Below are positions 3,805 through 44,700 of a DNA stretch of 64,000 bases, piece after piece. The notes below the pieces were generated by a model. That model had not been told where the DNA came from and made no database searches. It saw only the letters and a list, made by a program, of their open reading frames with translations. Within the stretch, counting starts at the first letter, position 1. The number at the start of each line of letters is the position of its first letter. Made by a program: the position numbers and the translations under genes. Source of the DNA: a virus; the IMG/VR virus record IMGVR_UViG_3300043313_001352, positions 50,035 to 114,034 of that record; one strand, given 5' to 3'.

Positions 3805-4412
3805 CTCAGCTCGGACTGCTCCTCGTCGATGAACACCGGCCACACATCAGCGGTCTCCCGGCACCGGGAGATCCCGCAGACACGGGCGCCGTCGACCCAG
3901 GCGAACCGTCGCTCCAGCTCCTGCTCGGCCCAGGCCGGGTTGCTCAGTGCGGCCCGGCGCTTGGACAAATGGGTCGAGAACGCCCTCAACCCGGTCAGGA
4001 ACGGGTGTCGTCCGTGGTCCTTGCGGTCGATCGGCAGCCGTTGGTTCCAGTAGCGGTTCGGTCGGTCGATGTCGGCGATCGGCCGGAACTCGACGCACGG
4101 ACACGTGGGGTGCACCACCGTGGTCTGCGTCTGCGCCTCCCGGTCCATCGACTTGGTCTCGGTCTGAAAGCCGCGGTCCGGCATCGCACCGACGCAGCCG
4201 TCGAGGATGGCACTCACGGTCACCTCCAGGCCGCCGATGTTCCGCGGGAACGGCGCCGGTACGTGATACGCACCGCCGATCGACTCGCCGTGATAGCGGT
4301 CGAGGTGGCCACACACGCAGATCTTGAACCAGTTGTGGTACCCAGCTCGCTCACGCTTCCTGGTGAAGAAATCCTGTCCGAAACTGTTCTTGACCTCGTC
4401 CGAGATGCCCAC
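3786..4412 (-). CDS. Cys/His-rich hypothetical protein, 208 aa
   Basis: GTG 4412 has AGGAG eight nt upstream. Residues about 31-41 (ICVCGHLDRYH) and 103-107 (CPCVE), plus later CGISRC and a terminal CAAHR, suggest one or two structural zinc sites. The middle (NRYWNQRLPIDRKDHGRHP) is basic, so nucleic-acid contact is possible. It heads a two-gene transcript from the promoter at 4460-4489. Confidence 0.75.
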   Translation of the reverse strand: MGISDEVKNSFGQDFFTRKRERAGYHNWFKICVCGHLDRYHGESIGGAYHVPAPFPRNIGGLEVTVSAILDGCVGAMPDRGFQTETKSMDREAQTQTTVVHPTCPCVEFRPIADIDRPNRYWNQRLPIDRKDHGRHPFLTGLRAFSTHLSKRRAALSNPAWAEQELERRFAWVDGARVCGISRCRETADVWPVFIDEEQSELRCAAHR

Positions 4413-4672: not shown

Positions 4673-4873
4673 TGCTTCATCACTGCTTTGATGTCCGTTT
4701 CCTCCCTAGTCACCTGTGCCTCCCGACCCCGTCCTCCCCCACCGTCGCTGACCCCTTAGAACCCGCACTCCAGATTGCTCGTCTGAACCCTTAGTCCCCA
4801 CACTTCCAAGTGGTTGTCCCCGTCCACCATCTCTAGGGATTCACCTGTCGGACGATGTGCTACTCAGATCCCC

Positions 4874-5401
4874 TCAGACCAGCCGCACCCCGACGAACAC
4901 CCTCGCCTTCCCGTCCCACGTCGCACCCGCCGCCAGCAGGTGCTCGCGCAGCACCTCGCGCTTCATCCGCAGACTTCCCGGCAGCTCCCGGAACCTCTCG
5001 CGCTCCGTGAACGCCAGCCAGGTCGCGAACGACACCTCCACGTCCCTCGGCGCCACGGTGTCCCCCTCCGGCCCCGTCCTCCCGGTCACCTCCACGCACG
5101 CCTCCCCCCACGCGCGCACCACCGGCTCCACCTCGGCCCGCCACTTCTCCTCGCGCGTCACCGCGCCGGGCACCGGCACCGTGTCGACGTGCACGTGCGT
5201 GATCCGCCACGCCCCCGGTCGCCCCAGCCAGGACTCGCGCTGGGTCTGGCTCATCAGCAGGAACCGCCCGAGTGCGGCCTGCCACTCCGCCCCGTACCGG
5301 GGCTCGGCCTTCCCCTCCGCGACCGCTGCGTCCCAGCACAGCCCCCAGCCCGCCAGCGCCTTGCTCAACCTCGCCGTCCCCACCATCTCAGCCGTCTCCA
5401 T
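4874..5401 (-). CDS. free-standing paralog of the primase-helicase C-terminal domain
   Basis: ATG 5401 is chosen over GTG 5434 because GGAGGAGAGCGACG precedes it. The last 75 residues align with the end of the SF3 primase-helicase at 12314: WGEACVEVTG against WSGACLEVTG, VEVSFATWLAF against MVVSFNTWVMF, LRMKRE against LRMTYD, and the endings VFVGVRLV and LMVGGRLV. The N-terminal 95 residues (RLSKALAGWGLCWDAAVAEG) are not shared. The helicase ATPase core is absent. This winged-helix-like domain may bind the origin or helicase; a decoy, loader or origin-specificity role is inferred. A pentanucleotide array lies immediately upstream. Confidence 0.8.
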   Translation of the reverse strand: METAEMVGTARLSKALAGWGLCWDAAVAEGKAEPRYGAEWQAALGRFLLMSQTQRESWLGRPGAWRITHVHVDTVPVPGAVTREEKWRAEVEPVVRAWGEACVEVTGRTGPEGDTVAPRDVEVSFATWLAFTERERFRELPGSLRMKREVLREHLLAAGATWDGKARVFVGVRLV

Positions 5402-5469: not shown

Positions 5470-5850
5470 AGGCTCTCCCCGCCCTCGGCAAGTCGGGGCA
5501 AGGCTTGGCTTGGCATGGCAGGGCAGGGCTCCCCCTAGGCCAGGCGCGGTCAGGCAGGGTTCGGCTCGGTCAGGCAGGGCAGGTTCGGCAGGGCGCGGTG
5601 TGCTGAGGTCCGGCGTGGCGAGGTGGGGCAAGGCACGGCAGGCTCGGAGCGGCTCGGCACGGCTAGGCATGGTGAGGCAGGCACACCCAGGCGGGGTCCG
5701 GCAGGGCACGTCAGCATTTGGCAGGGCATGGCAGGTGGGGCAAGGCTCGGTGTGGCCTGGCGGCGTACGGCATGGTTGGGTTCGGTTCGGCGTGGCAGGC
5801 ACGGTTAGGCATGGCAAGGTGAGGCGTGGCGAGGCGCGAGGGAACCCGCT
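5470..5850 (+). repeat. short GGCNN pentanucleotide array, inverted relative to the 21.6-25.6 kb array
   Basis: The plus strand reads as consecutive 5-nt units GGC plus two variable bases, punctuated by a 4-nt unit GGCA. The GGCA positions 5578, 5637, 5676, 5730 and 5794 are spaced 59, 39, 54 and 64 nt, all 5n+4. The array lies between divergent genes (5401 minus, 5886 plus). Long open frames here are compositional. It has the same architecture as the 4 kb array, on the opposite strand. Confidence 0.85.
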
Positions 5851-5872
5851 CGCTCGTCGTCAGGGTGGTGTG

Positions 5873-5878
5873 TACTCT
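5873..5878 (+). promoter_or_regulatory. -10 element TACTCT for a leaderless HNH transcript
   Basis: TACTCT ends 7 nt before ATG 5886, so transcription should begin at or next to the start codon. No Shine-Dalgarno is present, which agrees with a leaderless mRNA. Confidence 0.5.
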
Positions 5879-5885
5879 TCTCCCC

Positions 5886-6290
5886 ATGGGAGGGAACAAG
5901 CGCGGGTCGGTATTACGGTCACTGACCTGCCACTACTGCGGTGAGCGGGCCGAGGGCGAAGACCACATCGTGCCGCGAGCCGACCTGCCCAAGCCGCTCT
6001 CGAAGCTGCCCTACTGGTTCCGCGCCAACGACGTCGTTCCGGCCTGCCAGCCCTGCAACGGCGACAAGGCGTGGTTCAGGTCCGACTGCGTCTGCTCGCA
6101 CTGCACATGGGCTTGGTCCACCGCTCACGCGCTGTTCCTGCCCGAGGGCTACACCGAGCGCGGTTGGGTCGCCATCCAGCAGAACCCGACCATCGCGATG
6201 CCGCTCGCGGTCCCGCGCCCCGACCGGTCCGCCTACCCAGGCACCCGCGAAGGCCGGTCCGACCGCGAGTCCCAGGCCCTGTCGAACTAG
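5886..6290 (+). CDS. HNH endonuclease, 134 aa
   Basis: ATG 5886 matches the leaderless promoter; the upstream in-frame ATG 5826 lies in the repeat array. The HNH fold is clear: CHYC at residues 15-18, DHIVP from residue 26 (catalytic His 27), Asn 48 and CQPCNGDK at 54-61, with a second Cys pair (CVCSHC) near residue 69. HNH proteins nick or cut double-stranded DNA in phage homing or packaging. As a single gene among alternating-strand genes, with no terminase nearby, a free-standing mobile nuclease is the simplest reading. Confidence 0.9.
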   Translation: MGGNKRGSVLRSLTCHYCGERAEGEDHIVPRADLPKPLSKLPYWFRANDVVPACQPCNGDKAWFRSDCVCSHCTWAWSTAHALFLPEGYTERGWVAIQQNPTIAMPLAVPRPDRSAYPGTREGRSDRESQALSN

Positions 6291-6908: not shown

Positions 6909-7373
6909 CTACCGCCCACCCCAGGCCCGGTTCACCTCGTCGAGCACCGTCCACGGCGCCCGCCCGGCCTCGTTCGAGGTGAACCGGACGATCCGCCAGC
7001 CCAGCGCCTCGATCTCGCGCTGCCGCTTGTGGTGCTTGGCCCAGGCTTCCTGCGGCCCGTGGAAGGCCAGCCCGTCGATCTCGATCCCGAGCTTGCGCCC
7101 GGCCAGCCCGAAGTCCAGGTAGTAGCGCCCCACGCGCACCTGACGACGCAGCCCGGCCAGTGCAGGCCACCGGTCCGGCGATGCCGTGTACGCCGCCCAC
7201 AGCACGTCCTCGGACGGCCCCACCCACGGTCCGCCGACCTTCTTCTCCCCCGCCCCGCCAGCCGTCCCAGCCACAGTGAACCGGCCGTCCTTGCCCCGCG
7301 CCCGCCCCCGCACCGGGGTCCCCCGGACCAGGATCATCCGGGGAGTCCGCACCACCCTGCGCCGCCGCGCCAT
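6909..7373 (-). CDS. DUF559/Vsr-like PD-(D/E)XK endonuclease
   Basis: Residues about 80-150 contain the DUF559 core: RVGRYYLDFGLAGRKLGIEIDG gives the acidic (D, then E-x-D) positions of a PD-(D/E)XK site, and RQREIEALGWRIVRFTSNE is the conserved motif of very-short-patch-repair-like nucleases. The N-terminal 60 residues are basic. It converges with the secreted-protein gene and its ATG is 6 nt downstream of a TAGCGT -10 box. Free-standing phage copies are often homing-type endonucleases. Confidence 0.85.
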   Translation of the reverse strand: MARRRRVVRTPRMILVRGTPVRGRARGKDGRFTVAGTAGGAGEKKVGGPWVGPSEDVLWAAYTASPDRWPALAGLRRQVRVGRYYLDFGLAGRKLGIEIDGLAFHGPQEAWAKHHKRQREIEALGWRIVRFTSNEAGRAPWTVLDEVNRAWGGR

Positions 7374-20886: not shown

Positions 20887-21087
20887 TCACACCGCCCGCA
20901 TCGGGCAGTCCTTCGCGTGCCAGCCGTACTCACCGCAGTGCGTGCCGTCGGGGAACCTCGTCCCCGGACATGCCCGGACCTTGCGCAGATCCTCGCGCTC
21001 CTGTTCCTCCACGTACGCGGTCTCCGCTTCCTCGTCGCGGCGCCGGTACTCCTCGGCGAAGTCTGGGTCGTCGTAGTAGGAACTCAG
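20887..21087 (-). CDS. small acidic Cys/His protein, 66 aa, probable CTG start
   Basis: The frame opens right after an in-frame TGA; its first plausible start is CTG 21087 in a CTGA overlap with the upstream stop, a start-stop geometry used throughout this genome. The sequence SSYYDDPDFAEEYRRRDEE, then CPGTRFPDGTHCGEYGWHAKDC with a probable C-C-H-C zinc site, is convincingly protein-like and third positions are G/C. A GTG lies 25 codons later if CTG is not used. Convergent with the fibre gene, one base after its stop. Confidence 0.6.
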   Translation of the reverse strand: MSSYYDDPDFAEEYRRRDEEAETAYVEEQEREDLRKVRACPGTRFPDGTHCGEYGWHAKDCPMRAV

Positions 21088-21554
21088 CTGGCTTCACCCG
21101 CGCTGGCACTGAGGTCGGTGAGCACCTCGTTGGCGAACTCCGCCATGTGCTCGTAGCGCTTCTTGAAGGATCGCCAGTCACGGCGCATCTGGCGCAGCAT
21201 CAGCTCGCGCTGGATCGGGTCCGTGATGACCTCCTCGATCGGCTCGTACGCCGAGGTCGGGCTGCCGTCTTCTCCACGGGTGACCCAGAACGCCCGGAGG
21301 TCGGCGCGCTTGTTGCCGACGTCGGCCTTGTACTTCACGCGCAGCAGGTTCCCGGCCTGGTGCAGCCGCCACTTGTGCGCGGCCACGTCGTCACGCCAGT
21401 CGAACCGGTGGTGCAGTGGGTGGTCAGGATTCGAGGCTTCCTCGACCACGACCTCTGGGGTCAGCAGCCCGCGCTTGTCTCGGATCGCCAGCAGCACGTC
21501 ACGCAGGTTCTCACCAGCGCTGGGCACTGGGGTCTCGTCGGTTCCGTTCGTCAT
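21084..21554 (-). CDS. conserved actinophage hypothetical protein, 156 aa
   Basis: ATG 21554 follows GGGAGGGACGCA. Residues about 28-75 (RGLLTPEVVVEEASNPDHPLHHRFDWRD and following helices) match a family repeatedly found in actinophages near DNA-processing genes, without an assigned function. The C-terminal third is a long charged helix (RELMLRQMRRDWRSFKKRYEHMAEF). Its promoter marks one edge of the 4 kb pentanucleotide array. Confidence 0.8.
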   Translation of the reverse strand: MTNGTDETPVPSAGENLRDVLLAIRDKRGLLTPEVVVEEASNPDHPLHHRFDWRDDVAAHKWRLHQAGNLLRVKYKADVGNKRADLRAFWVTRGEDGSPTSAYEPIEEVITDPIQRELMLRQMRRDWRSFKKRYEHMAEFANEVLTDLSASAGEAS

Positions 21555-21611: not shown

Positions 21612-24600
21612 AGCCGCGCCGGGCCACGCCGAGCCGTGCCCAACCATGCCTTGCCAATCCGCGCCTGCCGCACCTTGCCGCACCCACCTATCCATGCCGG
21701 TCCCAGCCTCACCACGCCTGCCTGGCCGCGCCACGGCGCGCCTTGCCCGGCCATGCCTTGCCAACCCCGCCTGCCTTGCCCGGCCGCGCCTAGCCTTTCC
21801 ACACCGCGCCTGCCCCGCCATGCCGAACCTGGTCACGCCTCGCCCAGACGGGCCTGCCAAGCCCAGCCCAGCCAAACCTTGCCTTGCCGCACCTGGCTGT
21901 GCCACGCCTGCCTGGCCGCGCCACACCCAGTCGTGCCAGGTCCCGCCTAGCCATTCCCTGCCTGCCTCGCCGTGCCTGACCGCACCCCACCATGCCTAGC
22001 CCCACCGCGCCTGCCATGCCGTACCAGACCTTGCCGAGCCAACCGGGGCTGCCTTGCCAAGCCCACCGCACCTAGCCCTCCGCGCTGCGCCTGTCCATGC
22101 CTAGCCCTGCCTGCCTCGCCATGCCGTACCGGACCCTGCCGGACCGGACCACTTCGGAACACACCTAGCCATGCCCTGCCGAGCCTGCCAAGCCACGCCC
22201 CACCGGACCCGACCACGCCTAACGCCACCTGGCCCCGTCAGTCCGTACCTAGCCACGCCTGCCTTGCCGTGCCGTGCCGGGCCTAACCCCACCCGACCAT
22301 GCCTTGCCTGCCGCGCCGCGCCCACCCGGCCATGCCTAGCCCCAGGTCACCTCGCCCAGCCTGCCTCGCCCAACCCGGCCATGCCTAGCCCTGTACGCCG
22401 CGCCACGCCTGCCGGACCAAGCCGCGCCTGACCGAACCAAGCCCCGCCGAGCCCACCTCGCCTGCCGGACCTGGCCGTGCCTGGCCTAGCCGCGCCCATC
22501 CATGCCCCGCCTGCCAAGACCCGCCGTGCCGTGCCATCGGTACCGAGCCCTACCAAACCACGCCTGCCGCGCCGTGCCAGACCGCTGCCGTGCCGACCAC
22601 GCCTAACCTTGCCCCGCCTGCCGTGCCATGCCCAGTCGCACCCTGCCGCGATCGCCATGCCCAGCCGTGCCGTTCCTGCCATGCCGGACCTCGCCCTCCC
22701 GGCCATGTCGTGCCCTGCCCCGCCTGCCCTGCCGAGACTGGCCGAGCCGTGCCATGCCTTGCTCACCTGGCCGTGCCGAGCCCGGACCCGCCTGCCTTGC
22801 CATGCCGGGCCGAGCCGTGCCTACCTGACCTAGCCCTGCCTGCCCAGCCACAGCTTGCCGTGCCTTGCCATCCGCGCCTCGCCTGCCGCACCCCACCTAG
22901 CCTGACCGAGTCATGCCCCGCCTGCCTCGCCTTGCCAGGACATGCCTTGCCACACCGCGGTGCACCAACGCCTCGCCTGCCAAGCCTTGCCTTGCCGTGT
23001 GCTGCCAAGCCGGGCCTGGACATGCCCACACGTGCCCTGCCGACCCGAACCACACCGAGCCATGCCTGCCGCGCCACGCCTTGCCTTGCCATGTCAACCG
23101 GGCCTGGCCCTGCCGCCCGCGCCTTGCCACGCCTGCCCGACCACACCACGCCTTGACCTACCCACGATGCCCCGCCTGCCGGGCCTAGCCCTGCCTTGCC
23201 AGACGATCCTGGCCGCGCCTGCCCTGCCTTGAGCGCCTTGCCTCGACCCGCCGTGCCAGGACTGCCGGACCGTACCGTGCCCAGCCTCGCCACGCCGTAC
23301 CTAGCCGCACCTGCCGGACCGTGCCTTGCCCAGCCACTCCATCCGTACCTAGCCTGCCGAGCCGTGCCTTGTCACGCCACGTCCCGCCCGGACTCGCCCC
23401 ACCGAGCCATGCCTGCCCAGCCGAACCACTCCTAGCCTGGCCATACCCTGCGCTGCCTGCCGTACCGAGCCACGCCGTACCGCGGAAGCCACGCCGATGC
23501 CTTGCCCCGCCTGCCGAGCCGTTCCTGGCCATGTCCCGCCGCGCCGTGTGCTGCCCCGCCTAGCCCCGCCTGCCGCGCCATGCCTTGCCGACCTTGCCTC
23601 GCCCAACCGTGCCAGACCTGCCCCGCCGCACCTAGCTGCACCGCACCAAGACCCGCCTGCCGCGCCTGGCCGAACCTTGCCATCCTTGCCCTCCGCGCCG
23701 CACCGAGACACGCCTGCCCAGCCCCGTCGTGCCATGCCTGGCCGCGCCCCACCTGACCAAGCCTGCCGAGCCGGGCCGCACCATCCTCGCCATCCGGTGC
23801 CGTGCCCCGCCTTGCCTGCCGCGCCGCGCCCTGCCAAACCTAGCCAAGTCGTGCCCTGCCATGACGAGCCGTGCCGGACCTGCCGTACCTCGCCACGCCC
23901 AGCTCCGCCGAACCTCCCGAGCCCAGCCATGCCTGCCGAGCCGAGCCGCGCCCCGCTTCGCCCTGCCAGGCCCGACCTTGCCATGCCTGCCACACCCGGC
24001 CTTGCCACATACTGCCGCGCCCACCGATCCTGGCCGCGCCCAGCCATGCCTGCCCGGCCCCGCCGCACCTCGCCATGCGCTGCGATACCACGCCACGCCC
24101 TCCGCGCCTGCCTGGCTCAGCCACACCGTCCCGTGCCACGTATCCCAGACCACGCCATGCCTGCCTCACCTAGCCCTGCCAAGCCCGGCCAATCCTGGAC
24201 GTGCCGGACCGAGCCAAGCCTGCCGGACCACGACGTCCATGCCCTGCCGCTGCCATGTGATGCCCTCCGCACCGAGCCACGCCTGCCTGACCGCACCAGA
24301 CCCGGCCGCACCCTGCCTAGACCACCGCGCCATGCCTGCCGTGCCGAGCCAGCCCTTGCCTCGTGAAGCCCAGCCCCGCCTCGCCGTGCCCAGCCAATCC
24401 GCGCCTGCCCCACCGATCCAAGCCCTGCCTTGCCTAGGCAAACCACGCCTGCCTGGCCTAGCCGGACCAAGCCGAACCCCGCCTATCCCCGACCCGCCTG
24501 CCGGACCGCACCTTGCCGTCCGCGCCGCGCCCAACGATGCCCAGCCACGCCTGCCGAACCGTGCCACGCCGTACGCCCCAAGCCGGACCCAACCTGCCCC

Positions 24601-25598
24601 GCCTCGCCTAGCCCAGTCTCGCCATGCCCAGCCTGGCCGTGCCCCGTTCACCGCGCCTGCCGAGCCTCGCCCCACCGACCTAGCCAACCCAGACCTAGCC
24701 TGCCGCGCCTCGCCCAGACAAACCATCCTCGCCGGACCGCCCGCACCTCGCTGCGCCAAGCCTGCCGCGCCACGTCATGCCACAGCTCGCCGCCCGTACC
24801 AAGCCTCGCCTGCCCCACCTCACCTAGCCAGGACGCGCCGGACAGCACCACGCCTCGCCACACCTTGCCTGCCGGGCCGCACCGAACGATGCCGAAAGCC
24901 ACCAAGCCCAATCATCCGAGCCGCACCACGCCTGCCTTGCCCGGCCGGACCGGACCGCGCCGTACCCGCCCCTGACAAACCCTGCCTAGCCCTGCCAGCT
25001 CCCTGCCATGCCTGGCCTGCCAGACCACGCCCCTCCGAACCTGGCCACACCATGCCCTGCCTCGCCTGCCGTGCCCGACCCTGCCAACGACGCCTAGCCC
25101 TGACACACCATGCCCTGCCTGCCACGCCGTGCCCAACCAAGCCCGGCCGGTCCCTGCGATGCCTTGCCATGCCAAGCCTGCCGTGACCCGCCTTGCCACG
25201 CCCCGCTTGCCCCGACGCACCTGGCCTTGCCTAGCCTGCCGAACCTAGCCGAGCCACACCATGCGTAGCCCCGCCGGACCAACCCGAGCCCCGCCCTGCC
25301 TGCCGCGCCTGGCCGTTCCCAGCCCACCAAGCCACACCGTCCCGGCCAAGCCTGGCCGTGCCAAGCCTGCCCAACCGCGCCTGGCCAGACCAAGCCAAGC
25401 CGTGCCATCCGCGCCTTGCCGACCACTCCGTGCCGCGCCCCGCCTGCCGGGCCTGGACTCGCCGTGCCATGCCTAGACCTGCCTGCCATGCCGCGACGAC
25501 CGGGCCAAGAATCCCATGCCCCGCCCCGCCTAGCCTGCCCCGCCGAGCGATGCCCTGCCGCGCCTAGCGTTGCCATCCCGTGCCTGCCGTGTCCGGAC
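21612..25598 (-). repeat. 4 kb degenerate GCCNN / NNGGC pentanucleotide array
   Basis: Nearly 4 kb in which the plus strand is GCC followed by two free bases, repeated about 800 times, e.g. GCCGT GCCTT GCCAT GCCAA. The phase is broken by a 4-nt unit GCCT, producing GCCTGCC words; consecutive GCCTGCC distances are mostly 39, 44, 49, 54, 59 or 64 nt, all 5n+4. There are no ribosome-binding sites, and open frames occur on both strands in all frames because the period is not a multiple of 3. On the minus strand the units give GG tracts spaced by 3 nt, able in principle to form two-tetrad G-quadruplexes. Bounded by a promoter (21610) and a terminator (25602). Confidence 0.9.
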
Positions 25599-25659: not shown

Positions 25660-26343
25660 TTACTTGACCTCGACCGAGCGCGTCGGGTCGATCATGAAGG
25701 TGCCCATGTCGCCCTTCTTCTCCGGGCGCCACTCACCGACGCCGACACCCAGGCCACCGGCCTCGATCAGCGAGAGCACGCTCTCGCGGGTCAGCATCGA
25801 CTTCACGTACGTCACCTCCAGCACCGTCGACCACTCGGTGAACTGCGGCCGGTAGCGCAGGTCGGTGCCGCCGTTGCCGACGCGCACGACGTCCTCGCGC
25901 ATGATCGGCTCGCCCTCGATCCGGACCATCATCTGGCCCTCGGTCTTGGACATCTCGCCGGAGAAGAACAACGTCTGCCGGAGGCTGACCATGGTCACGC
26001 TCTTGTCGAAGAACCTCGCAGCGCTGACGGTCGCGGCCTTGAACGCGATCGAGGGGAACCCGTAGCCGCCGTCGTCCATCTTGTAGGCCGCGGCCTCGTA
26101 GTCGCCCTCGGGGTCCTTGGGCGCCTTCGGGCTCTTGCGGCCCTGCATCGCATCCAACATCTGCCTCTTCGCCTTCTCGCTGAACTTGTGCATGATCAAC
26201 GGCGCGGAGCCGACGATCGGGATCAGCAGCGTCTCGGTGCCGATCCGGGAGATCTCGATCGCCGGTGCGCTCTCGTCCTCGGCGGGAGGAGGAGTCGCTG
26301 CGGTCTTCTTGGCTGCGGTCTTCTTGGCAGGCTTCGTGGCCAT
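25660..26343 (-). CDS. conserved phage protein with RAMP-like glycine loop, 227 aa
   Basis: ATG 26343 has AAGGACGGA upstream; GTG/ATG further up lies in the leader. After a Lys/Ala/Pro tail (residues 2-28) the domain begins IGTETLLIPIVGSAPLIMHKFSEKAK. It contains YGFPSIAFKAA, MREDVVRVG-GGTDLRYRPQF and ends with GLGVGVGEWRPEKKGDMGTF. This family is widespread in phages and usually unannotated. The glycine-rich loop near the C-terminus resembles the G-loop of RAMP proteins such as Cas7; this is structural inference, not demonstrated homology. An RNA- or ssDNA-binding role would fit. It stands between the array and the fibre genes with its own terminator. Confidence 0.85.
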   Translation of the reverse strand: MATKPAKKTAAKKTAATPPPAEDESAPAIEISRIGTETLLIPIVGSAPLIMHKFSEKAKRQMLDAMQGRKSPKAPKDPEGDYEAAAYKMDDGGYGFPSIAFKAATVSAARFFDKSVTMVSLRQTLFFSGEMSKTEGQMMVRIEGEPIMREDVVRVGNGGTDLRYRPQFTEWSTVLEVTYVKSMLTRESVLSLIEAGGLGVGVGEWRPEKKGDMGTFMIDPTRSVEVK

Positions 26344-26368
26344 GTGTCGTTCCGTCCTTGAGGTTGTG

Positions 26369-26385
26369 TTCCCCACCTTGGGGAA
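26369..26385 (-). promoter_or_regulatory. leader hairpin TTCCCC-loop-GGGGAA
   Basis: A perfect 6-bp stem with a 5-nt loop in the untranslated leader, about 26 nt before the ATG of the RAMP-like gene. It could protect the mRNA or be a protein-binding site. Confidence 0.4.
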
Positions 26386-32349: not shown

Positions 32350-35300
32350 CTAGGTGTTGAGGAAGGAGGTCGTCAGGTAGATGACGTCACCGTTGGCCAC
32401 GGTGCCGATCGTGACTCCACCGCCAGAAGAGATCTGACAGTTGACTACCGTGTTGGTGCCGTTGCGGGCGAGGAGGTTGACGGAGATTACTGGGCGTCCA
32501 GCAGTCAGCGGGATCGTCGCCATGGTCGTACCCGAGCCTGAGGCGCGCGAGAAGGTTCCTCGGAAGTAGACCTGCTCTCCGATGATCTTGTACGCAGGCA
32601 CGATGTTTCCAGCACCCCACCCCGCTCCGTACGCGAAGGAGTTCCAGCCACCACCTTGCGCGGAGTCGGCAGGCATGGACTCATCAGTGGCCCACTCGAT
32701 CCTTCCGGCGTCGATGTTGAAGTACGCGACCAGCACCCAGTTGTTCGGCACCGTGAAGTCGCTGAGGTAGTTCGTGTACCGGAAGTTTGCGGCCAGTGAG
32801 GTCGCAGCAGACCCGAAGGGGATCTCGTACCAGAGAACGTCCCATGAACTCATAGGGACGCCTGCCGAGGTGACCGTCTTTTGAGTGGCCCCGCCGAAGT
32901 TCGGGATCACCGTGCCAACAGGCGGCATGGTGATCTCGAAGTAGCCAGAAGGGGCAAGGTTGACGCTTCTACCGATACTCATCGGCATGAACCGCGCAGA
33001 CCACGAGATGTTGTAGTTGATGTCAACGACCTTGACACCGCCACCAGAGAGTTGTGACTGGGCACGGATGGAGTAGTACAGCTGCTCAAACGCCTTGCCA
33101 GTGAAGGAAGTCGCGCCAGCGCCTCCGACGTCCAGGGTCTCGAAGTGAGCGACACCGTCACCAGTGAGCTTGATCTTGGGGAACCCGCCAGTGCCTGGTG
33201 CGTTGGACTCCCATGAGGCTGGAGACGCAGCGATGAAGCTGGTGAGCAGCGGCGGCGCATCGGTGTCACCTACGGCACCGACGAAGTTCGGGGTGCTGAC
33301 GGTCGAGTACGTCGCTCCGACTCCAGACGGCAGGAACGCAGGCTGCTCAGGCTGCAGGATGAAGTCAGTCCGGATCGGCGTGATGTTGAGCGCCGCCCGA
33401 GTCAGGTAGAACCGGAACGAGTTCACATCGTTGACAGTCCGTGCCGTGCCCTTACCTGCAGCCGGGTCTGGCAGGTCCGGCACCGTGACGGTCAGCCGAG
33501 CCCGCTTCTTCATCGTGATCGAGGCGTACGCCGAGGCGTTCGACTCCTGGATGGCCCCTTGGGAGTCGTACCAGGTGAACGCTCCCCACCAGATCGAGGG
33601 ATCCGTGGCTGCCCAGGTGATCCCGGTGTAGTTGTAGAACTGCGGGCCGTCAGTGGCCGGAGCGGCCGTGAACCTCGTGAACGCACCAGTCAGCACATCT
33701 CCACACGCGCTGACACTCCGGGTCGCTGGGACCGCTGGGAACTCCAGGTCGACCAGACGCGCGGGCGAGGCAGCGTCAGTGAAGACGTAGTTGTTCACCG
33801 TCCCGTGGATCACCCAGATGTCCCGGTCGGTCGTCTCGAAGCCCATCCGCTGCGAGGAGCCGTAGGTGACACCGCACAGATCCTCGTCCTGGGCGAAGAA
33901 GGATGAGTTGATGGTCTTCGTGGCGCTCGGGGTGATCGTGGTGTCGGTGAAGGCCAAGGTGGCGAGTTCAATGGTGCCACCGGGCCATGGTGCGAACATG
34001 TTCCGCTTGGCTTGCGCGACCATGTGTGCGCGGGTAGCACCGGTCGCTGAGAAGCACCGTCCCAGCCGCCATTGCCAGAACCAGGAGAAGGTACCGTCCT
34101 GACGCTCGGCCTTCTTGATCGGGGCGAGAGTGCCCGAGGTGTTCATCGCTGAGTCGTCCCAGCTGGTGATCATGTACTTCTCGTCGCGGGCTCCAACGTA
34201 CCCAGCGGTGCGGAAAAATCCGTTGGTGACCTGTCGCTCAAGCCCACCAACAGCGATGACTGAGTTGCCATGGAAGGTGTAGTACGCAGCTGTCTCCCCG
34301 TTGCTGTTCGCGACGCGGGGGACCTGCCACCAGGTGGTCCCCTTCTTCATCGTCGCGTCGTCGAAGAATGTGTTCGCACAACGGAACGAGCCAGTGGACT
34401 CAGCACTGTCCAGGTGGAAGCCCCAGAACGGGTCACACCACTGTCCCCGTGCGAACGCGGACTGGGGGTAGTCCGTGCCCAGCGAGGGACCTGAGGTGGC
34501 ACCCACGGTCTGGGTCTGCAGGATGGTCTTGGAGCCCATCGCGAAGGTCGACTGGCCGCGGACATCCATCCCCTGGCCGACCGTGAGCCCGCGTGCCATG
34601 ATCTGCGCGTCGATCACCGAAGGCTTCTGTGGATCGTTGGGCAGGTCGACCCGGATCGAGACACCATCGGAGCCGTACTGCCTCAAACCCTCGCTGGACA
34701 GCTCCATCCGCTGCCCGGACTCAGCCGTCTTGATCTTCCCGATGATGGCGAGGTCAGCGTCCAGCTTCGCGCCCTTGATCTGAATCGCGTCCACCAGGTT
34801 GGTGTAGATGTAGCCGTCGGAGATGTCGGCCTCGGTGATCTGACGCAGGGTGGCCGAGCCAGCAGTACCGGGAGCAGCGGAGTTGAACCCGCCACCGATC
34901 TTGGCGTCCTTGGCGACGATCCGCACGTAGTAGGTGACCGAGCCGTCCTTGACCAGGAAGGTGCCGTCCGCCAGCTGCTCACGGATCGTGTAGGAGGTCG
35001 CCGTGGTCTCGATCTGCAACGTCGCTGCCGATGGCGTGAACGTGGCACCGGTGGTAGCGCAGTGCACCTCGTAGGTCACCGTGTCGTGGTTGAGGATCGC
35101 AGGCCACTTGATCCCCAGCGAGGAGACCGAGCCCGTCACCGTAGCTGCGGGTGAGGACGCAGGCGCAAGAGCATCGGGCGTGGCGGCGTTGTACGCCGAG
35201 TCAGCCGTGGCCGGGACGTTCGAGCTGGCCACAGTGAGCAACAGGTCGAAGATGCCAGAAGCAGCCGGGATGTCTGTCTCAGGCACCAGCGTGGTGTTCC

Positions 35301-38300
35301 AGCCTGTCTGCCAGGTGTCAGGTGGCAGGGTGTGTGAGATCTCGGCATCCACTGCTGTGATCTTCGGGTACTGCCAGTAGTTGCTGGCTGCCTGCGAGGT
35401 CAGGATGATGACCAACGTCCCGGTGGAGATGCGTCGAGCTACCCGAACCCCAATCGGCAAGTTGCCGGTGTTCACTCCCGTCGCGTTCGCGACTGAGGGC
35501 GGTGGACCTGCGTAGGAGTAACCGGATGTCTCCAGGTTGAAGGTCCCCTGGGTGGAGGCGTAGTTGAACCCCGAGAGCTTGATCTTGTACATCCGGTTGG
35601 TGAACGTGATCGGGGTGTCGATCACGATGTTGCCCGTCAGGTTCCCAGCCGCGTTCGCGTAGCTGGTCACGTCTCGGAACAGCTTCCCGTTGGCCCCGAT
35701 CAGCGAGATCTTGGGCAGCGCCTGAGAGGCAGCCGTGTAGGAGGAACTCTTGGAGACCCCGGTGTAGGTGAAGGTGAGGTTCGAGTAGGTGATCTTGTTG
35801 GTGGTGTACAGCTCGGTGTTGGTCAGGTAGCCAGGCTCGGTCGGGACCCAGGGAGCCACTGGAGTTGCCACCACCGGTACGGCAGGTGCTGCTGCTCCAA
35901 CAGGAGTCACCGTGGCGTAGTACGGAGTGACCGCCGTGATGCTGACACCCTGGGCACCAGCACCACCGGTCGAGCCCTGTGCTCCCGTGTAGGAGACAGA
36001 CCAGGCGAAGGTCTTGGTGAAGCTGACACCTCCGACCGTGATCGGAACCGTCAGAGTGCCGCTCTGGGTCACCAGAGCCGTCGTGACCGTGGCTGTGAAC
36101 TGCGCCGTCAGACCGGGGTTGTTCTGGTACGTGATCGTCATGCCGGTCGGCGCACCAGTGATCGTGCCGATCGTGGCGGACTGCTGGACGGCGCCCTTGT
36201 ACGCCAGCACCTGACTGGTTGTGAACCCGGCCACTGCAGCAGAGACGGTGCCGGGGAACACCTGAGCTTCGTTGGTCAGGACGACCGTGACTGCGTCCGC
36301 GCCTACGAAGCCAGAAGAGCCGTCGGAGATCTTGGAGATCGTCATGGTGTCGGTGACACCCGACGCGCCCGTTGCCTTGATGGCCAGAGTCTTCGCAGTC
36401 ATGATCGCGCCGGTGACGGTCACGACATTGCCCGCCACCGAAGCGTAGATCGGAGCAGCACCAAAGGTGCCGCCGTCTGCACTGAACGTCCACGTCGAAA
36501 TCGTGGTGCCGGTGGGAGTTCCGGTGATCACTGCCGTTGCAGGAGTTGTCGTAGCAGGTGCGACTGTGAAGTTGTCCAGCCTGCCAGCGTTGACGCCGAA
36601 GTTGTAGAGACCGTGTCGGGTGCCTGTGTAGGTGGCATCGGTGGCGGTCACTACCGTCACGTCGTTGATCTTGCCTTGCAGTGTTGAGCCAGACGCGGTG
36701 ATGGAGACCTTGTCGCCGAGCACGGCCAATGCCGTGGACTGGCCAATGGTCGTGTACGTCTCGGCACCGTACGCCCCTGCTGACCGATAGATCTGCAAGG
36801 ACCCGTTGTTGTTGATGACCAGCACGTAGCCGTTCAGGTTGGTCAAGTTGTGCCGGAACGCTATCCCTCCAGAGAGTAGGCCGGTGATGACAAAGGAGAC
36901 GGTGACGTCCGCGGTGCCACACTCCACGTCCGCGTAGGACTGACCACCCGTAGCGCCAGCCGTCGCGATGTACGCCTTGCCGCCGCTGACACCCCACACC
37001 GAACTGTTGTCGTTGCGCCACGCCTGACCCGTCTCAGTGGTACCGAGCGAGGTGGTTGAGTCTCCACGGTTGAACGAGTCGAGGATCGTGGGAGCAGGAG
37101 CAGACAGTGCCTGTGTGGTGGCGGTCAGGTCAACGATCGTGGCCGCCGCGCCAGTCGCTCCACCCGCACCTGTGAAACTCAGCGCCCACGTGAAGACCTG
37201 GTTGAACGTCATTCCGCCCACGGTCACTGGGATGGTGAACGTTCCAGTCGCTGTTGCCAGAGCAGTCGTCACCGTGAAGGTGATCAGAGGTGCTGTAGTC
37301 CCGTTGTTGGTCACCGCTGCTGTGATGCCGGTAGCGCCACCAGTGATCGTTCCGACCGTGGCTACCTGAGCCACCGTGCCCTTGTACGCGATGACCGTCG
37401 TGGTCGCTGTCGTAGCCAGCGCGTTGGTGAGACCAGCAGGGAAGCTCTGTGACTCGTTGGACAGCAACACGGTATAGGCGTCTGCTCCTGCGGGACCTGA
37501 TGGTCCCGTGCCTCCGGTGGCGCCAGTTGCACCGGTGAGCACCTTCGCCACCGTGAGCGAGTCCGCGACACCCGCGTTGTTGCCTGCCCGCACCGCGATC
37601 GTGCTGGCCGTCATCGTCGCCCCGGTGATGGTCACCACGTTCCCGGCGATCGACACGCCAGGTGGTGCTGTCCCGGACCAGGCACCGCTGTTGACGCTGT
37701 AGTCCCACACCGTGATCGTGGTGTTGACCGGGGTGCCCGTGATGGTTGCCGTGGCCGGGGCGGTAGCACCGGTCCCACTTGCAGGAGAGACCAGAACCTG
37801 AGCCGTCGAGGTCAGCGTGATCGTGGCAGCGTTAGATCCAGGAAGACCCTGTGGACCTTGGGTCTGGGTCCACTCGTACAGGTTCGCATCGGTACTCTCG
37901 ACGGCGGTCGTCTGGTTGTACGCGAGGCCCATGTGAGTGCCCACAGCGCTGTCGGTGACGTTCTTGACAGCGTGGTAGACCTCCTTGATGAAGACCTTGA
38001 TTCCGACAGCCTTGTTGTACGACAGGAGAGCGAGACGGACAGCAGTGGGAGCGCCCGCTGGAACGGTTGCCACACCGCTGTAGTCCGCGTAACTCGTGGT
38101 GATTCCACTGGGCTGCAAGCTAGTGAAGCGAACGACTTCTGTAGTACCGGCAGCGTTCAGCAGGATCGCGTAGATCCCCGACCCATCCCCTATGACGGTG
38201 CTTCTCATCCTGATGCGGAGGTAGATCACGTCGCCCGGAACCACGTCAAGCGTCTGCATGGCCGTGGCGCCATTCGTTGCGAGAAGGCCAGAAGTGAGGG

Positions 38301-41300
38301 CGAGAGCACCTTCGGTTGCATCCCACGCGACCGTGTGAGCAGCGTTGTACCACTGCATCCCGTTAACGCTGCGCTGCCAGTCAGCGGGCAGCGTCGGGTC
38401 AACCGTGTCCAGCTTGGCGAAGTCACCGTTACGGATGATGTCGTTGCCGTACTTGATCCAGGTGTAGGTGGGCTGTCCGTTAGGACCAATGGGACCTTGC
38501 ACGCCCTGGTTTCCCTGGGGACCTTGGATCAGTGACCAGTCATAGTCGGTGTAGATGGACGACTCAGTGGCAGAGGACTTGTTGTAGGCCAAGCCCATGT
38601 AGATCTTGCCTGCAGGTAGGTCACTCATCCCCGTCGAAGGCGTGTCCGCGTACTTCAGCCACGTGTAGGTGGGCAGACCGTTCGCGCCGGTCGGACCTTG
38701 GATCCCTTGAGACCCGGTGGCACCGGTGAAGGCCAGCGACCAAGAGAAGATCTGGTTGAAGGTCAGCCCGCCTACGGTCACCGGGATGGTAAAGGTCCCC
38801 GTGGCCGTGCTCAGTGCTGTCGTCACGGTGAAGGTGATCAGTGGCGCGGTGGTGCCGTTGTTGGTCACCGCTGCGGTGATGCCGGTAGCGCCACCGGTGA
38901 TCGTCCCGACCGTAGCGGTTTGTGCCACCGTGCCCTTGTAGGCGATGACGGTGGAAGTGGCAGACCCCGCTAGAGCGTTGGTGAGCCCAGCAGCAAAGCC
39001 CTGAGACTCGTTGCTGAGGAGGACCGTGTAGGCGTCAGCACCTGCAGGTCCAGTGCTGCCAGTAGAGCCGGTAGCACCGTCGGAGACCTTCGCTACGGTC
39101 AGCGTGTCACTGTTGCCGGAAGCCCCGATCGCCTTCACCGCGATGGTCTTGGCCGTCATGGTCGAGCCAGTGATCGTGACCACGTTCGATGCAGCGGGCC
39201 TGGAGACACCAGGTGGAACGGTCCCGGAGAAGGCAGCTCCGTCCACGCTGTACTGCCAGCCTGCCGTGGAGTCCGGGATCGTGGTGTTCGTCGCTACAGC
39301 CGTCACTGTCGCAGTCGCGGGTGTGATCGTTCCGCCTACACCAACTGCCAGCACCTGCGTGCTCGCTGTCAGGTCGACAGTCGAGGCAGGAGCACCAGCC
39401 ACACCCTGGGAGCCTTGTGGACCCTGAGGGCCTTGGATGAGCGACCACTCATAGTCGGTAGGAACGGTCGTCTCGGTAGCAGTGGTCTTGTTGTAGGCAA
39501 TACCGATGTAGGTCTTGCCTGCGGGCAGGTCGGAGATGTCAGCGACGATCGGGGTAGCGCTGGTGGCGTACTTGATCCAGGTGTAGGTGGGCTGTCCGTT
39601 CGGACCAGTCGGACCTTGCAGACCGGTGTTGCCCTGTGGGCCAGTAGTCAGGTTCCACTCATAGTCGGTGTAGATGCTGGACTCGGTAGCAGTGGTCTTG
39701 TTGTAGGCGATACCCAGGTACGGCTTGCCAGCAGGCAGGTCGCTCATCCCGGTGGTAGGCGTGTCGGCGTACTTGACCCAGGTGTAGAGCTGCTGCCCGT
39801 TCGGCCCGATCGGACCTTGCACACCTTGAGACCCGGTCAGACCCAGCGACCAGGAGAAGGTCTTGGTGAAGGTGATCCCACCGACGGTGATCGGCACCGT
39901 CAACGAACCTGAGGTGGTCACCAGCGCGGTGGTCACCGTGACGGTGAAGCCAGCCGCCGTCGTGCCGTTGTTGGTCAGTGCCGTAGTCAGACCAGTGACC
40001 TGCCCGGTGATCGTGCCGATCGTGGCCGTCTGCTGAACAGTCCCCTTGTACGCCAGCACCTGGCTGGTGGTTGATCCAGCGACAGCTGCGGTGGTGGAGC
40101 CAGGGAACACCTGGGCTTCGTTGGTCAGCTGCACGGTGTAGGCATCAGCGCCCGCACTGCCGTCCATGGACTTGGCCACGGTCAAGGTGTCAGCGACCCC
40201 GTTGGCGTCGGACATGCGCACCGCGATCGTGCGCGCGGTCACGGTGCCGCCGGTGACGGTGACCACGTTGCCGCTGCGCGAGACGCCCGTGGGGACCGAG
40301 GTCGAGAACACCCCACCGTCGACGCTGTAGTCCCACACCGTGATCGTGGTGTTGATCGGGGTGCCGGTCACCACGGCCGTCGTGGGCGTGGTGGCCCCTC
40401 CGGTCGCCGGGGAGGTCAGAACCTGGCTGGTCGAGGTCAGGCTGATGGTCGCAGCGGGAGTGCCAGGCACGCCGTTGGCACCGATCGGCCCGGCGAACGA
40501 CAACGACCAGCTGAACACCTGGTTGAACGTGATGCCGCCTACCGTGACCGGGACGGTGAAGGTCCCGTTGGCAGTGACCAGCGCGGTAGTGACCGTGAAC
40601 GTGATCAGGGGTGCCACAGTGCCGTTGCTGGTCACCGCGGCGGTGATGCCCGTGGCTCCGCCGGTGATCGTCCCGACGGTCGCGGTCTGCTGCACCGTCC
40701 CCTTGTAGGCGATCACCGTCGTCGTCGCCGTTGCGGCCTGAGCGTTCGTGGTACCAGCGGTGAAGGTCTGCGACTCGTTCGAGAGCACGACGGTGTACGC
40801 GTCGGCTCCTGCCGCACCGGTCGCACCGGTCGAGCCGTGCGCGGAGACCGAGTAGGCAGTCGACGTCGTGGTGTCGGAGTAGGTGGTGATCGTGCGCGTC
40901 CACAGGAACTGTCCAGGGATGGTCGCCTGCGGCGTCGATTGCCACGTCCCGACTGGTGCCGTCGTGCCGGTCGAGCCGACCTGGTAGGTGACCGCAGTGC
41001 CGGTGACACCGACACCTGGTGCCCCGGTGGAGCCCGAGGTGCCGTGTGCGGAGACTGAGTACGCCGTCGAGCTGGTGGTGTCGGAGAAGGTCGTGACCGT
41101 CCTGGTCCACAGGAACTGCCCAGGGGAGGTGGCCTGCGGACTGGACACCCAGGTGCCTGTCGGCGCAGTGGTGCCGGTTGAACCCACCTGGTAGGTGACG
41201 GTGGTGCCGGTGACGCCAACGCCCGGCGCTCCGGTACCGCCAGTGCTGCCGGTGGCGCCGTCGGAGACCTTGACCACGGTGAACGTGTCGGCCAGCCCAG

Positions 41301-44300
41301 CAGCATCGGCCATCTTGATCGTGATGGCCCTCGCCGTCATGGTCGTGCCGGTGATCGTCACGACGTTGCCGGTGCGACTCACACCCGCAGGAAGCGCGGG
41401 CAAGAAAGTGGCGCTACCGTCCACGCTGTAGGTCCAGGCCGTGATGGTGGTGTTCGTGGCGACACCTGTCACGGTGGTCGTTGCGGGAGTGGTGGCTCCC
41501 CCGGCTGCAGGGACCGCCAACACCTGCGAGGTAGCAGTCAGCGAGATGGTCGGAGCAGCGGCACCAGGCACACCCTGGGAGCCTTGTGGACCTTGCGGTC
41601 CTTGGATCAGCGACCAGGTGTAGTCGGTAGGAACCGTGGTCTCCACGGCAGTGGTCTTGTTGAACGCGAACCCGATGTAGGGCTTGCCTGCCGGGGTATC
41701 GACCAGCCCGCCGCCATTGATGTCATCGGCGTACTTCACCCAGGTATAGGTGGGCTGACCGTTAGCCCCAGCAGGCCCCTGGATGCCCATGTTCCCCTGA
41801 GGCCCCTGGATCAGGCTCCAGTCATAGTCCGTGTAGATGCTGGACTCGGTAGAGCTGGTCTTGTTGTATGCCACACCCATGTAGGTCTTACCGGCAGGCA
41901 GATCGCTCATCCCAGTAGTCGGCGTATCGGCGTACTTCAACCACGTGTAGAGGCTTGCTCCGTTAGCACCAGTCGGACCCTGGATGCCTTGTGATCCTGT
42001 TGGACCTGGTGGTCCTTGGATGAGCGACCACTCATAGTCCGTGGTGATCGTGCTCTCTGCAGCCGTGGTCTTGTTGTACGCGATGCCCATGTAGGTCATG
42101 CCGACCGGAGAGTCACTGATCTGTGGAGTGGTGGGCGCTCCGTTGGGCGCGTACTTGATCCAGGTGTAGGTCGGTTGCCCGTTGGGACCGATCGGCCCCT
42201 GGATCCCCGTGTTCCCCTGGGGTCCCTGAATCAACGACCATTCGTAGACGTTGTAGTTGACGCTGTCCTCGGTCTGGGTCGTCTTGTTGTAGGCGATGCC
42301 CATGTACTTCTTGCCCGTGGGGTCATCGTTCATCCCCGTGGTGGGGGTGTCCGCGTACTTGATCCAGGTGTAGGTCGGCAAGCCATTCGCACCGACAGGC
42401 CCCTGGATGCCCTGTGAACCCTGAGGGCCTTGCGGACCCTGGATGAGTGACCACTGGTAGTCGGTGGGGATCGTCGTCTCGGTGGGCGTGGTCTTGTTGA
42501 ACGCGAGACCGATGTAGGTCATCCCAGCCGGTACATCCACGATCTGGCCAGCGGTGGGGTTGCCGTTCGGTGCGTACTTGACCCACGTGTACGTGGTGAC
42601 ACCATCAGCCCCAGGAGTACCTGGGATGCCCTGGTTTCCTTGTGGACCCTGGATCAAGCTCCAGGTGTAGTCGGTGTACACCGTGGTCTCAATCGCTGAG
42701 GTCTGCCCAACCGCGATCCCCATCCAGGTCTTGCCCGTAGGAGAGTCAGACATGTCAGCAGGGATCGGAGTAGCGCTGGATGCGTACTTCAACCAGGTGT
42801 AGTAGGTGATCCCCGGAGAGCCTTGGATGCCCTGAGAGCCAGCGGGTCCTGGTGGGCCTTGGATCAAGGCCCACTCATAGTCGGTCGTGACCGTGGACTC
42901 TGTGGCCGTCGTCTTGTTGTACGCGATGCCGATGTAGCTCATCCCGACCGGCGAGTCGCTGATCTGGCCGGTGGTGGGTGCTCCGTTGGGCGCGTACTTG
43001 ATCCAGGTGTAGGTCGGTTGCCCGTTGGGGCCAGTGGGTCCTTGCACACCGGTGTTGCCCTGGGGGCCTTGAATCAACGACCAGCCATAGTCGGTGTAGA
43101 TGCTGGACTCGGTGGAGCTGGTCTTGTTGTACGCCAGACCCATGTAGGTCTTCCCGGCTGGGAGATCGCTCATCCCAGTCGTCGGTGTGTCGGCGTACTT
43201 CAGCCAGGTGTACATCGGCTGGCCGTTGGGACCGGTCGGTCCTTGGATTCCTTGTGACCCGACCGCGCCAGCGAGGCTCAGCGACCAGGCGAACGCCTTG
43301 GTGAACGACTTGCCGTCTGCCGTGATAGGCACCGTCAAGGTGCCGTTGACGGCCGTCAGCGCCGACGTGACATCAATCGTGAAGCCCGCCGTGGTGGTGC
43401 CGTTGTTGGTCAACGCGGTGGAGATACCTGCCACCTGGCCGGTGATCGCACCGATCGTGGCCGGGATCTGGGTGACGCCCTTGTAGGCGATCACCTGGCT
43501 GGTGGCGCTCGCGCTCACCGCAGCTGTGGCCGTTCCCGCGAAGCTCTGCGCCTCGTTGGTGAGCAGGATCGTGTACGCATCGGCGCCAGCCGGTCCGGTG
43601 CCACCTGCTGCGCCGTCGGAGATCTTCGCGATGGTCATGGTGTCTGCGTTGCCAGCAGCGTCAGCTGCCTTCACCGAGATCGTCTTGGCCGTCATCGTGG
43701 CACCAGTGATGGTCACGCTGTTGCCGGTGCGGCTCACTCCGGCAGGGACCGTTCCGGAGTAGGTGGCTCCGTCCACCCCGTAGGTCCAGTTGATGATCGT
43801 GGTGTTGATCGCTGCCCCGGTCACCGTGGTCGTGGCTGGGGTCGTCGTACTACCGCTCGCAGGCACGGCCAGCACCTGCGAAGTAGCCGTCAAGGTGATG
43901 ATGGCTGCGTCGGATCCAGGTGGGCCTTGGAACAAGCTCCACTCATAGTCGGTGGCGACGGCGCTCTCGACGTCGGTGCTCTTGTTGTAGGCGATACCGA
44001 TGTAGGTCTTGCCTGTCGGGGAGTCGCTCAGCCCAGCTCCGGTGGCGCTGTCGCCGTACTTGATCCAGGTGTAGGTGGGCTGACCGTCGGGACCCGCCGG
44101 GCCGGGTATGCCGGGCTCGCCGGGCTCTCCGGGCGTACCGGCGGGACCAGGCGTGCCACGGATCGGACCGATGTTCGACCACCCGGTGCCGGTCCACTTC
44201 ACACCATCGCCGACCGCAGCAGCGGTGCCGTCCATGGCCGGAGGGACCCAGCCAGGCACCGGCGTACCGACGATCCAGATCTGGCCCGGTAGGGGAGCGG

Positions 44301-44700
44301 TGGGTGCCGTCTGGGGTGTGGTGCCGATGATGCTGACGCTGGCGCCGCTGTTGCCCGTCAGACCGGACGGACCAACCGGTCCCGTGGGTCCGGTGGCTCC
44401 GCGCGGCCCGGTCGCACCGATCTGGCCTTGCGCACCCTGGGATCCTGTCGGCCCCAGCGGACCAGGGACGCCGACCGGGCCAGTCGGTCCGGTCGGACCC
44501 AGAGCACCCGGTGTGCCGACCGGCCCGGTAGGGCCAGGAACACCCTGTGGCCCCTCGGTGCCGGGGATGACCAGGTCGATCTCATTGGGATCGCTGGAGA
44601 CCAGGTTGACGCTGACCCGCGGCTCTCCGGAGATGATGTCCAGCTCGATCTCCCCCAGGACGCTGGACAGCGTCACATTGTCCGTATTGTCAACGGTCAT
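32350..44700 (-). CDS. giant modular tail fibre, 4116 aa
   Basis: ATG 44700 overlaps the upstream stop. Residues 1-50 are an attachment segment and 50-120 collagen-like (GPTGPVG). Thirteen copies of a roughly 60-residue module (YTW-I/L/V-KYA ... [12 protein letters not shown]) linked by collagen-like [10 protein letters not shown] follow, interspersed with about six Ig-like units ([12 protein letters not shown] ... [10 protein letters not shown]) and several [10 protein letters not shown] domains. Near residues 2090-2245 a sugar-binding-like domain is inserted in module 13; near 2540-2715 a LamG-like domain is inserted in the last Ig unit. Residues about 2920-3270 are beta/FN3-like, and about 3320-4116 a unique head ending in the shared tip. 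The YTW module is best known from tail-tip proteins of Firmicutes phages. Likely the main host-range fibre. Confidence 0.92.

Follow-up and report, generated by a model that had tools for sequence, protein, structure and literature searches.

The closest described counterpart of the locus analyzed here is VIPR (Viral Interference Programmable Repeat), a phage-encoded system for RNA-guided DNA binding that was reported in a preprint of April 2026 (PMC13142463) and, as a kind, has been known since then. According to that preprint, a Vipr protein acts with vrRNAs of 9-16 YNNGG repeats, the NN pairs of which bind double-stranded DNA with one target base skipped per unit and no PAM (PMC13142463). 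The system is directed mostly at competing phages; the targets decoded there were satellites, prophages, and other VIPRs, and its accessory genes are designated vap1-6. SUSP1 encodes four vrRNAs of ~100 nt, and the vrRNAs of its clade carry an invariant structured 3' tail; the same source reports that other vrRNA architectures exist and proposes that VIPR predates CRISPR (PMC13142463).

The window (the whole 64,000-nucleotide stretch analyzed here) makes up the right-hand 64 kb of a virus record 114,034 bp long, and the nearest relatives of its helicase were found in Actinomycetia phage DSL-LC01 and in large Microbacterium and Arthrobacter phages. We consider it about 90% probable that a minus-strand array at 21613..25591 is the vrRNA guide store of a phage VIPR system that represses its targets through NN pairing; a RAMP gene of the Vipr family flanks it on one side and a putative accessory gene on the other.

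The array was first noticed as a plus-strand pattern in which GCC recurs every 5 nt and the next two bases vary freely. A five-state HMM called it as a GCCNN-type array of 3,979 bp with a log-odds of 1205, and the same HMM made no array call on 3-mer- or Markov-shuffled sequence. Identity at lag 5 was 0.523, versus 0.333±0.009 under a first-order Markov null (z=22), so that the array is real, its GCC and their spacing are conserved, and the predicted autocorrelation peak is present; the period, however, is not exactly 5 nt, as the Fourier peak fell at 4.858 nt and the mean period was 4.86. The shortfall arises because a 4-nt step recurs regularly, about every 10 units (CCTGCC on the plus strand, AGGC in the RNA sense). 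The plus-strand pattern holds as described, but it is the minus strand that is informative, being the strand of both flanking genes; in the RNA sense the unit therefore reads NNGGY. Stops were found in every one of the six frames across the array (13-22 per frame) with no frame open throughout; the array is noncoding, as the sequence-only reading had held.

Parsing by HMM resolved 819 units, of which 727 (~89%) had an intact GG, and Y was a pyrimidine in 745 of 781 (C in 599, T in 146), while NN took all 16 dinucleotides. In 73 units there was a single N, and in every case it was A; with these AGGC units as boundaries, about 74 guides result, averaging 10.2±2.1 units (range, 7 to 17) and consisting of alternating GGY and hypervariable NN, as in the 9-16-repeat guides by which VIPR is recognized. 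The guides abut, with AGGC as the sole separator (GGC-A-GGC). Imperfect GG occurred in roughly one unit per guide but never in the last unit preceding AGGC, an element that could mark where the RNA is processed, reset the register, or end a guide. A tandem-repeat scan found no long repeat unit spanning the array, the array and its flanks had no match in Rfam (hammerhead included), and no tRNA genes were found. Across positions 1-64000, GC skew passes from negative to positive at the array, with a cumulative minimum at ~25-26 kb to which the array itself partly contributes.

Tandem 5-nt units would also result from a pentanucleotide microsatellite that arose by replication slippage and then decayed, and some guides are indeed near duplicates (W41/W42 and W36/W43 among them). 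Against such an origin, GG has been kept while NN ranges over every dinucleotide, and guide lengths are far tighter (SD of 2.1 units) than expected if AGGC were placed randomly (9.7). The explanation, to which we give almost no credence, is refuted by the conservation of ordered NN strings between phages (see below), in agreement with the original statement that the array is not a microsatellite. Among guide overlaps that could rebuild a contiguous target, three near-duplicate pairs sharing a register were the only ones to stand out; the others were at the shuffled level.

The gene upstream of the array in transcription order, vipr (25660..26376, minus strand), encodes a 238-amino-acid Cas7/Csm3-like RAMP protein of phrog_4652, and the array begins 69 nt past its stop codon on the same strand. 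A profile of the window Vipr matched PDB 36pp_D, “SUSP1 Vipr protein,” at E=2.2e-8 (hmmsearch), and a Gordonia homolog matched the same chain alone at 3.8e-6. The AlphaFold model (pLDDT of 82) was assigned by Foldseek to Csm3/Cas7 RAMP subunits (E=1.8e-6; probability, 1.00; TM about 0.5). The window Vipr is thus a RAMP homolog with the G-loop; an invariant GxGxWRP motif lies close to the C-terminus. Directly downstream of the array, a 156-amino-acid protein of phrog_15946 (21084..21554, minus strand) is a putative vipr-accessory protein (vap), its family co-occurring with the array. Its AlphaFold model was confident and gave no significant PDB fold match. Neither PADLOC (2023) nor Pfam has a model for either the Vipr or the accessory protein.

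The association between array and genes extends well beyond the window. With the array as a blastn query against 50,697 phage records (INPHARED), 33 records were recovered at E<=1e-5 (27 Mycobacterium, 5 Gordonia, and 1 cyanophage), and tblastn with the phrog_15946 protein returned 33 records with an identical set of accessions. These arrays map to the early region, with cro/antirepressor genes close by (a putative excisionase adjoins the array in the cyanophage), and are accompanied by the same two gene families with the GGC strand as the sense strand. In the cyanophage (Cy-LDV1; locus L132), small arrays at 4006-4163 and 4764-4951 flank the accessory-protein homolog, with vipr upstream. Arrays were found at 78 of 80 viral Vipr-homolog loci (77 in one scan and L100 in another) and were co-oriented with vipr, the lone opposite call being a separate 80-bp segment in L182. 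Among bacterial genomes (Actinobacteria, Proteobacteria, Firmicutes, and others; GC of 40-70%), 54 of 63 Vipr loci had an array, and all 61 arrays at these loci were co-oriented with vipr. In total, 132 of the 143 Vipr loci examined had an array, nearly always in the direction of vipr, and the window array likewise lies beside vipr in its sense direction. An effect of GC composition is ruled out, as the signal was also present in AT-richer genomes. The search in related phages that had been called for thus recovered the same pattern both in phage records and at most Vipr loci, and the remark that no known phage element has this form no longer holds: arrays of this type occur widely among phages and prophages and were described in the 2026 preprint (PMC13142463). 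The AGGC delimiter was also found in the Mycobacterium F1, Gordonia, and cyanophage arrays and in most of the IMG/VR arrays that were checked, L042 being an exception. Among about 200 arrays surveyed, the window array was the longest, followed by that of a relative (3,482 bp) and by an independent one of 2,867 bp. The GC content of NN tracked that of the carrier (rho=0.51, p=1.6e-14; 195 arrays), which is consistent with targets of host-like composition, with mutational explanations also possible.

That relative, G001 (177 kb), encodes a Vipr 97% identical to that of the window next to its 3,482-bp array of 66 guides. Counterparts of 61 of the 74 window guides were found there, collinear except for a few local swaps, and the guides without a counterpart were scattered rather than clustered at one end. 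Since G001 was assembled independently and its array is collinear yet diverged, an assembly artifact is excluded. For estimates of rates, orthologous guides were restricted to pairs in which both neighbors matched, so that pairs were not picked by their NN similarity. In these pairs, NN differed at 16 of 622 positions (2.6%) and Y at 25 of 295 (8.5%, mostly C/T; Fisher p=1.2e-4), while fourfold sites differed at 14.5% in vipr and at 20-25% in the next genes. Purifying selection therefore acts on NN, contrary to the proposal that selection leaves NN free, and Y can change almost freely, a pattern that would be expected were NN the message. A whole-array MAFFT alignment gave the same direction more weakly (NN, 8.2%; Y, 12.0%; p=0.02) and was excluded from the rate estimates because nonorthologous guides become paired in it.

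The same observations bear on a role at the DNA level. A conserved trinucleotide spaced regularly over 4 kb might be coated cooperatively by protein or serve in looping, partition, or packaging, as was initially suggested. A period of 4.86 nt with regular 4-nt resets is not helical, however, and neither an orientation tied to vipr transcription, nor NN kept between orthologs, nor a size ranging from about 100 to 3,979 bp among relatives would be expected of such a site. We therefore regard a DNA-binding array as very improbable and set aside looping, packaging, and partition; coating itself is plausible, as a RAMP protein is expected to coat the array, but on RNA, not on DNA.

Under the VIPR reading, the array would be transcribed leftward together with vipr into an RNA carrying about 74 tandem guides. 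Vipr subunits, RAMP proteins comparable to the Cas7 that forms the backbone of CRISPR complexes, would hold the GGY of each unit and expose its NN. The NN of one guide would pair with double-stranded DNA as NNxNNxNNx, specifying ~20 bases in ~30 bp, and binding would repress the target, most likely a gene of a competing phage, prophage, or satellite.

The skip rule was examined with 1,426 guides pooled from fetched arrays, searched against 5.7 Mb of array-masked fetched DNA. With a 1-nt skip, 13 guides scored >=18 (9 after dropping loci that had been fetched by guide patterns). In each of the controls, which used a 0- or 2-nt skip, shuffled or reversed the order of units, or swapped N1N2, the count was 0-2 guides. 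Guides pooled from the clade thus follow the 1-nt skip rule when matched to other phages. Matches included an L175 guide to L212 (22/22), two L276 guides to L444 (21/22 and 18/18), and an L231 guide to an F1 integrase gene (23/26), and guides of L166, L177, L198, L149, L159, and L291 matched the vipr genes of other phages. The vipr gene is over-represented among these targets because the searched database centers on vipr loci. In one such case, an L177 guide matched the L166 vipr gene at 18/20; the vipr homologs of these two loci (G003 and G002, respectively), from one metagenome, each have a single TAG within the matched stretch, possibly just 5' of the true start. In an exact scan, an F1-phage guide had one match in an 8-kb contig, which was treated as chance.

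Searches of about 6 Mb of phage and prophage sequence that had been fetched yielded no convincing target for the 74 guides that the window itself encodes. One guide had no match in an exact 10-unit scan of IMG/VR, and exact 8-unit scans with three guides gave 18 matches each, with flanking units at chance level. This absence of a phage target would be expected if the same VIPR machinery carried a large fixed library aimed mainly at host chromosomal or host defense genes, i.e., at host takeover rather than at mobile elements. Such a library would also account for the 61 guides kept in a relative whose vipr and neighboring genes differ at 15-25% of fourfold sites, as most targets must then be stable. 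On the other hand, the targets decoded in the preprint were satellites, prophages, and other VIPRs (PMC13142463), those decoded here for the clade were phage genes, and one window guide searched against 395 actinomycete genomes had no match; we consider aim at the host unlikely and favor VIPR interference with mobile elements.

A second vrRNA array (5484..5835; 352 bp, HMM score of 109, about 6 guides) has the plus strand as its RNA sense. It sits 16 kb from the main array, on the opposite strand, with no vipr gene adjoining, and the whole 114-kb record has only one vipr copy. G001 has a small array that matches it, located at 54.8 kb, with which guides are shared. It is possible, though we hold this only tentatively, that the locus represents a distinct VIPR architecture: a large actinophage with a hard-wired, vertically inherited set of ~74 tail-less, AGGC-punctuated guides, whose Vipr would also serve the remote array in trans; dozens of genes, of the host or of rivals, would be silenced simultaneously instead of a few recent competitors.

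Several other features of the window were recorded. An ORF starting at the end of the second array (5826-6290, plus strand) has an HNH-like motif by eye (CHYCGE..DHIVP..CNGDKA) and no Pfam match, and an MTES_1575/DUF559 restriction-endonuclease-like protein is encoded nearby (6909-7373, minus strand). A single open reading frame of 4,116 amino acids occupies 32350-44700 (minus strand) and contains, at 40834-41235, two tandem 207-bp copies with 78% matches; a 3,289-amino-acid hypothetical protein between the portal and capsid genes of DSL-LC01 may correspond to it. At 62433-63971 (minus strand), a phage TROVE-domain protein (Ro60-like, RNA binding) matched Pfam PF05731 (E=1e-13) and phrog_850, an RNA-binding protein.

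The locus provides independent evolutionary support for the VIPR code, in that NN is conserved, Y drifts, and the pooled guides follow the skip rule. It also indicates that about 74 guides can be kept by one phage, raising the question of whether such a store is stable, hard-wired interference or an adapting library. Function hypotheses now follow for hypothetical genes and blank regions of Mycobacterium and Gordonia phages, for which standard laboratory hosts exist and in which the system is directly testable.

Compared with known systems, the guide-RNA-binding RAMP fold is held in common with class 1 CRISPR-Cas (Cas7/Csm3 backbone). Unlike in those systems, the window array lacks long identical repeats interspersed with unique contiguous spacers, its guide code is broken every 2 bases, and it shows no polarized turnover of guides. 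The arrays of Mycobacterium Cheoctovirus (cluster F1 type), Gordonia phages, and cyanophage Cy-LDV1, at loci annotated merely as hypothetical proteins or left blank, share its form, AGGC delimiters, two gene families, and sense direction, but have few guides and measure about 160-345 bp each, versus 3,979 bp; the link to the named Mycobacterium and Gordonia phages is new, being absent from the preprint's main text (PMC13142463). With the VIPRs of SUSP1 and P. fulva (type II), as described there, the locus shares a Vipr RAMP protein in both sequence and fold, alternating GGY/NN guides of about 9-16 units, an accessory gene (putative here), a phage-encoded setting, and the 1-nt skip (for the pooled guides of the clade). 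Whereas SUSP1 has four vrRNAs of ~100 nt, the window has about 74 guides in one 4-kb array; the invariant 3' tail of the SUSP1 clade was not seen between the window guides, only AGGC; and the oppositely oriented second array at a distance of 16 kb and a putative vap without a named family are further differences from these two VIPRs. Relative to the main text of that preprint, the new points here are an array larger than any other in the survey, its punctuation by AGGC with no tail, a second array at a distance that the relative also retains, and the conservation of the guide library.
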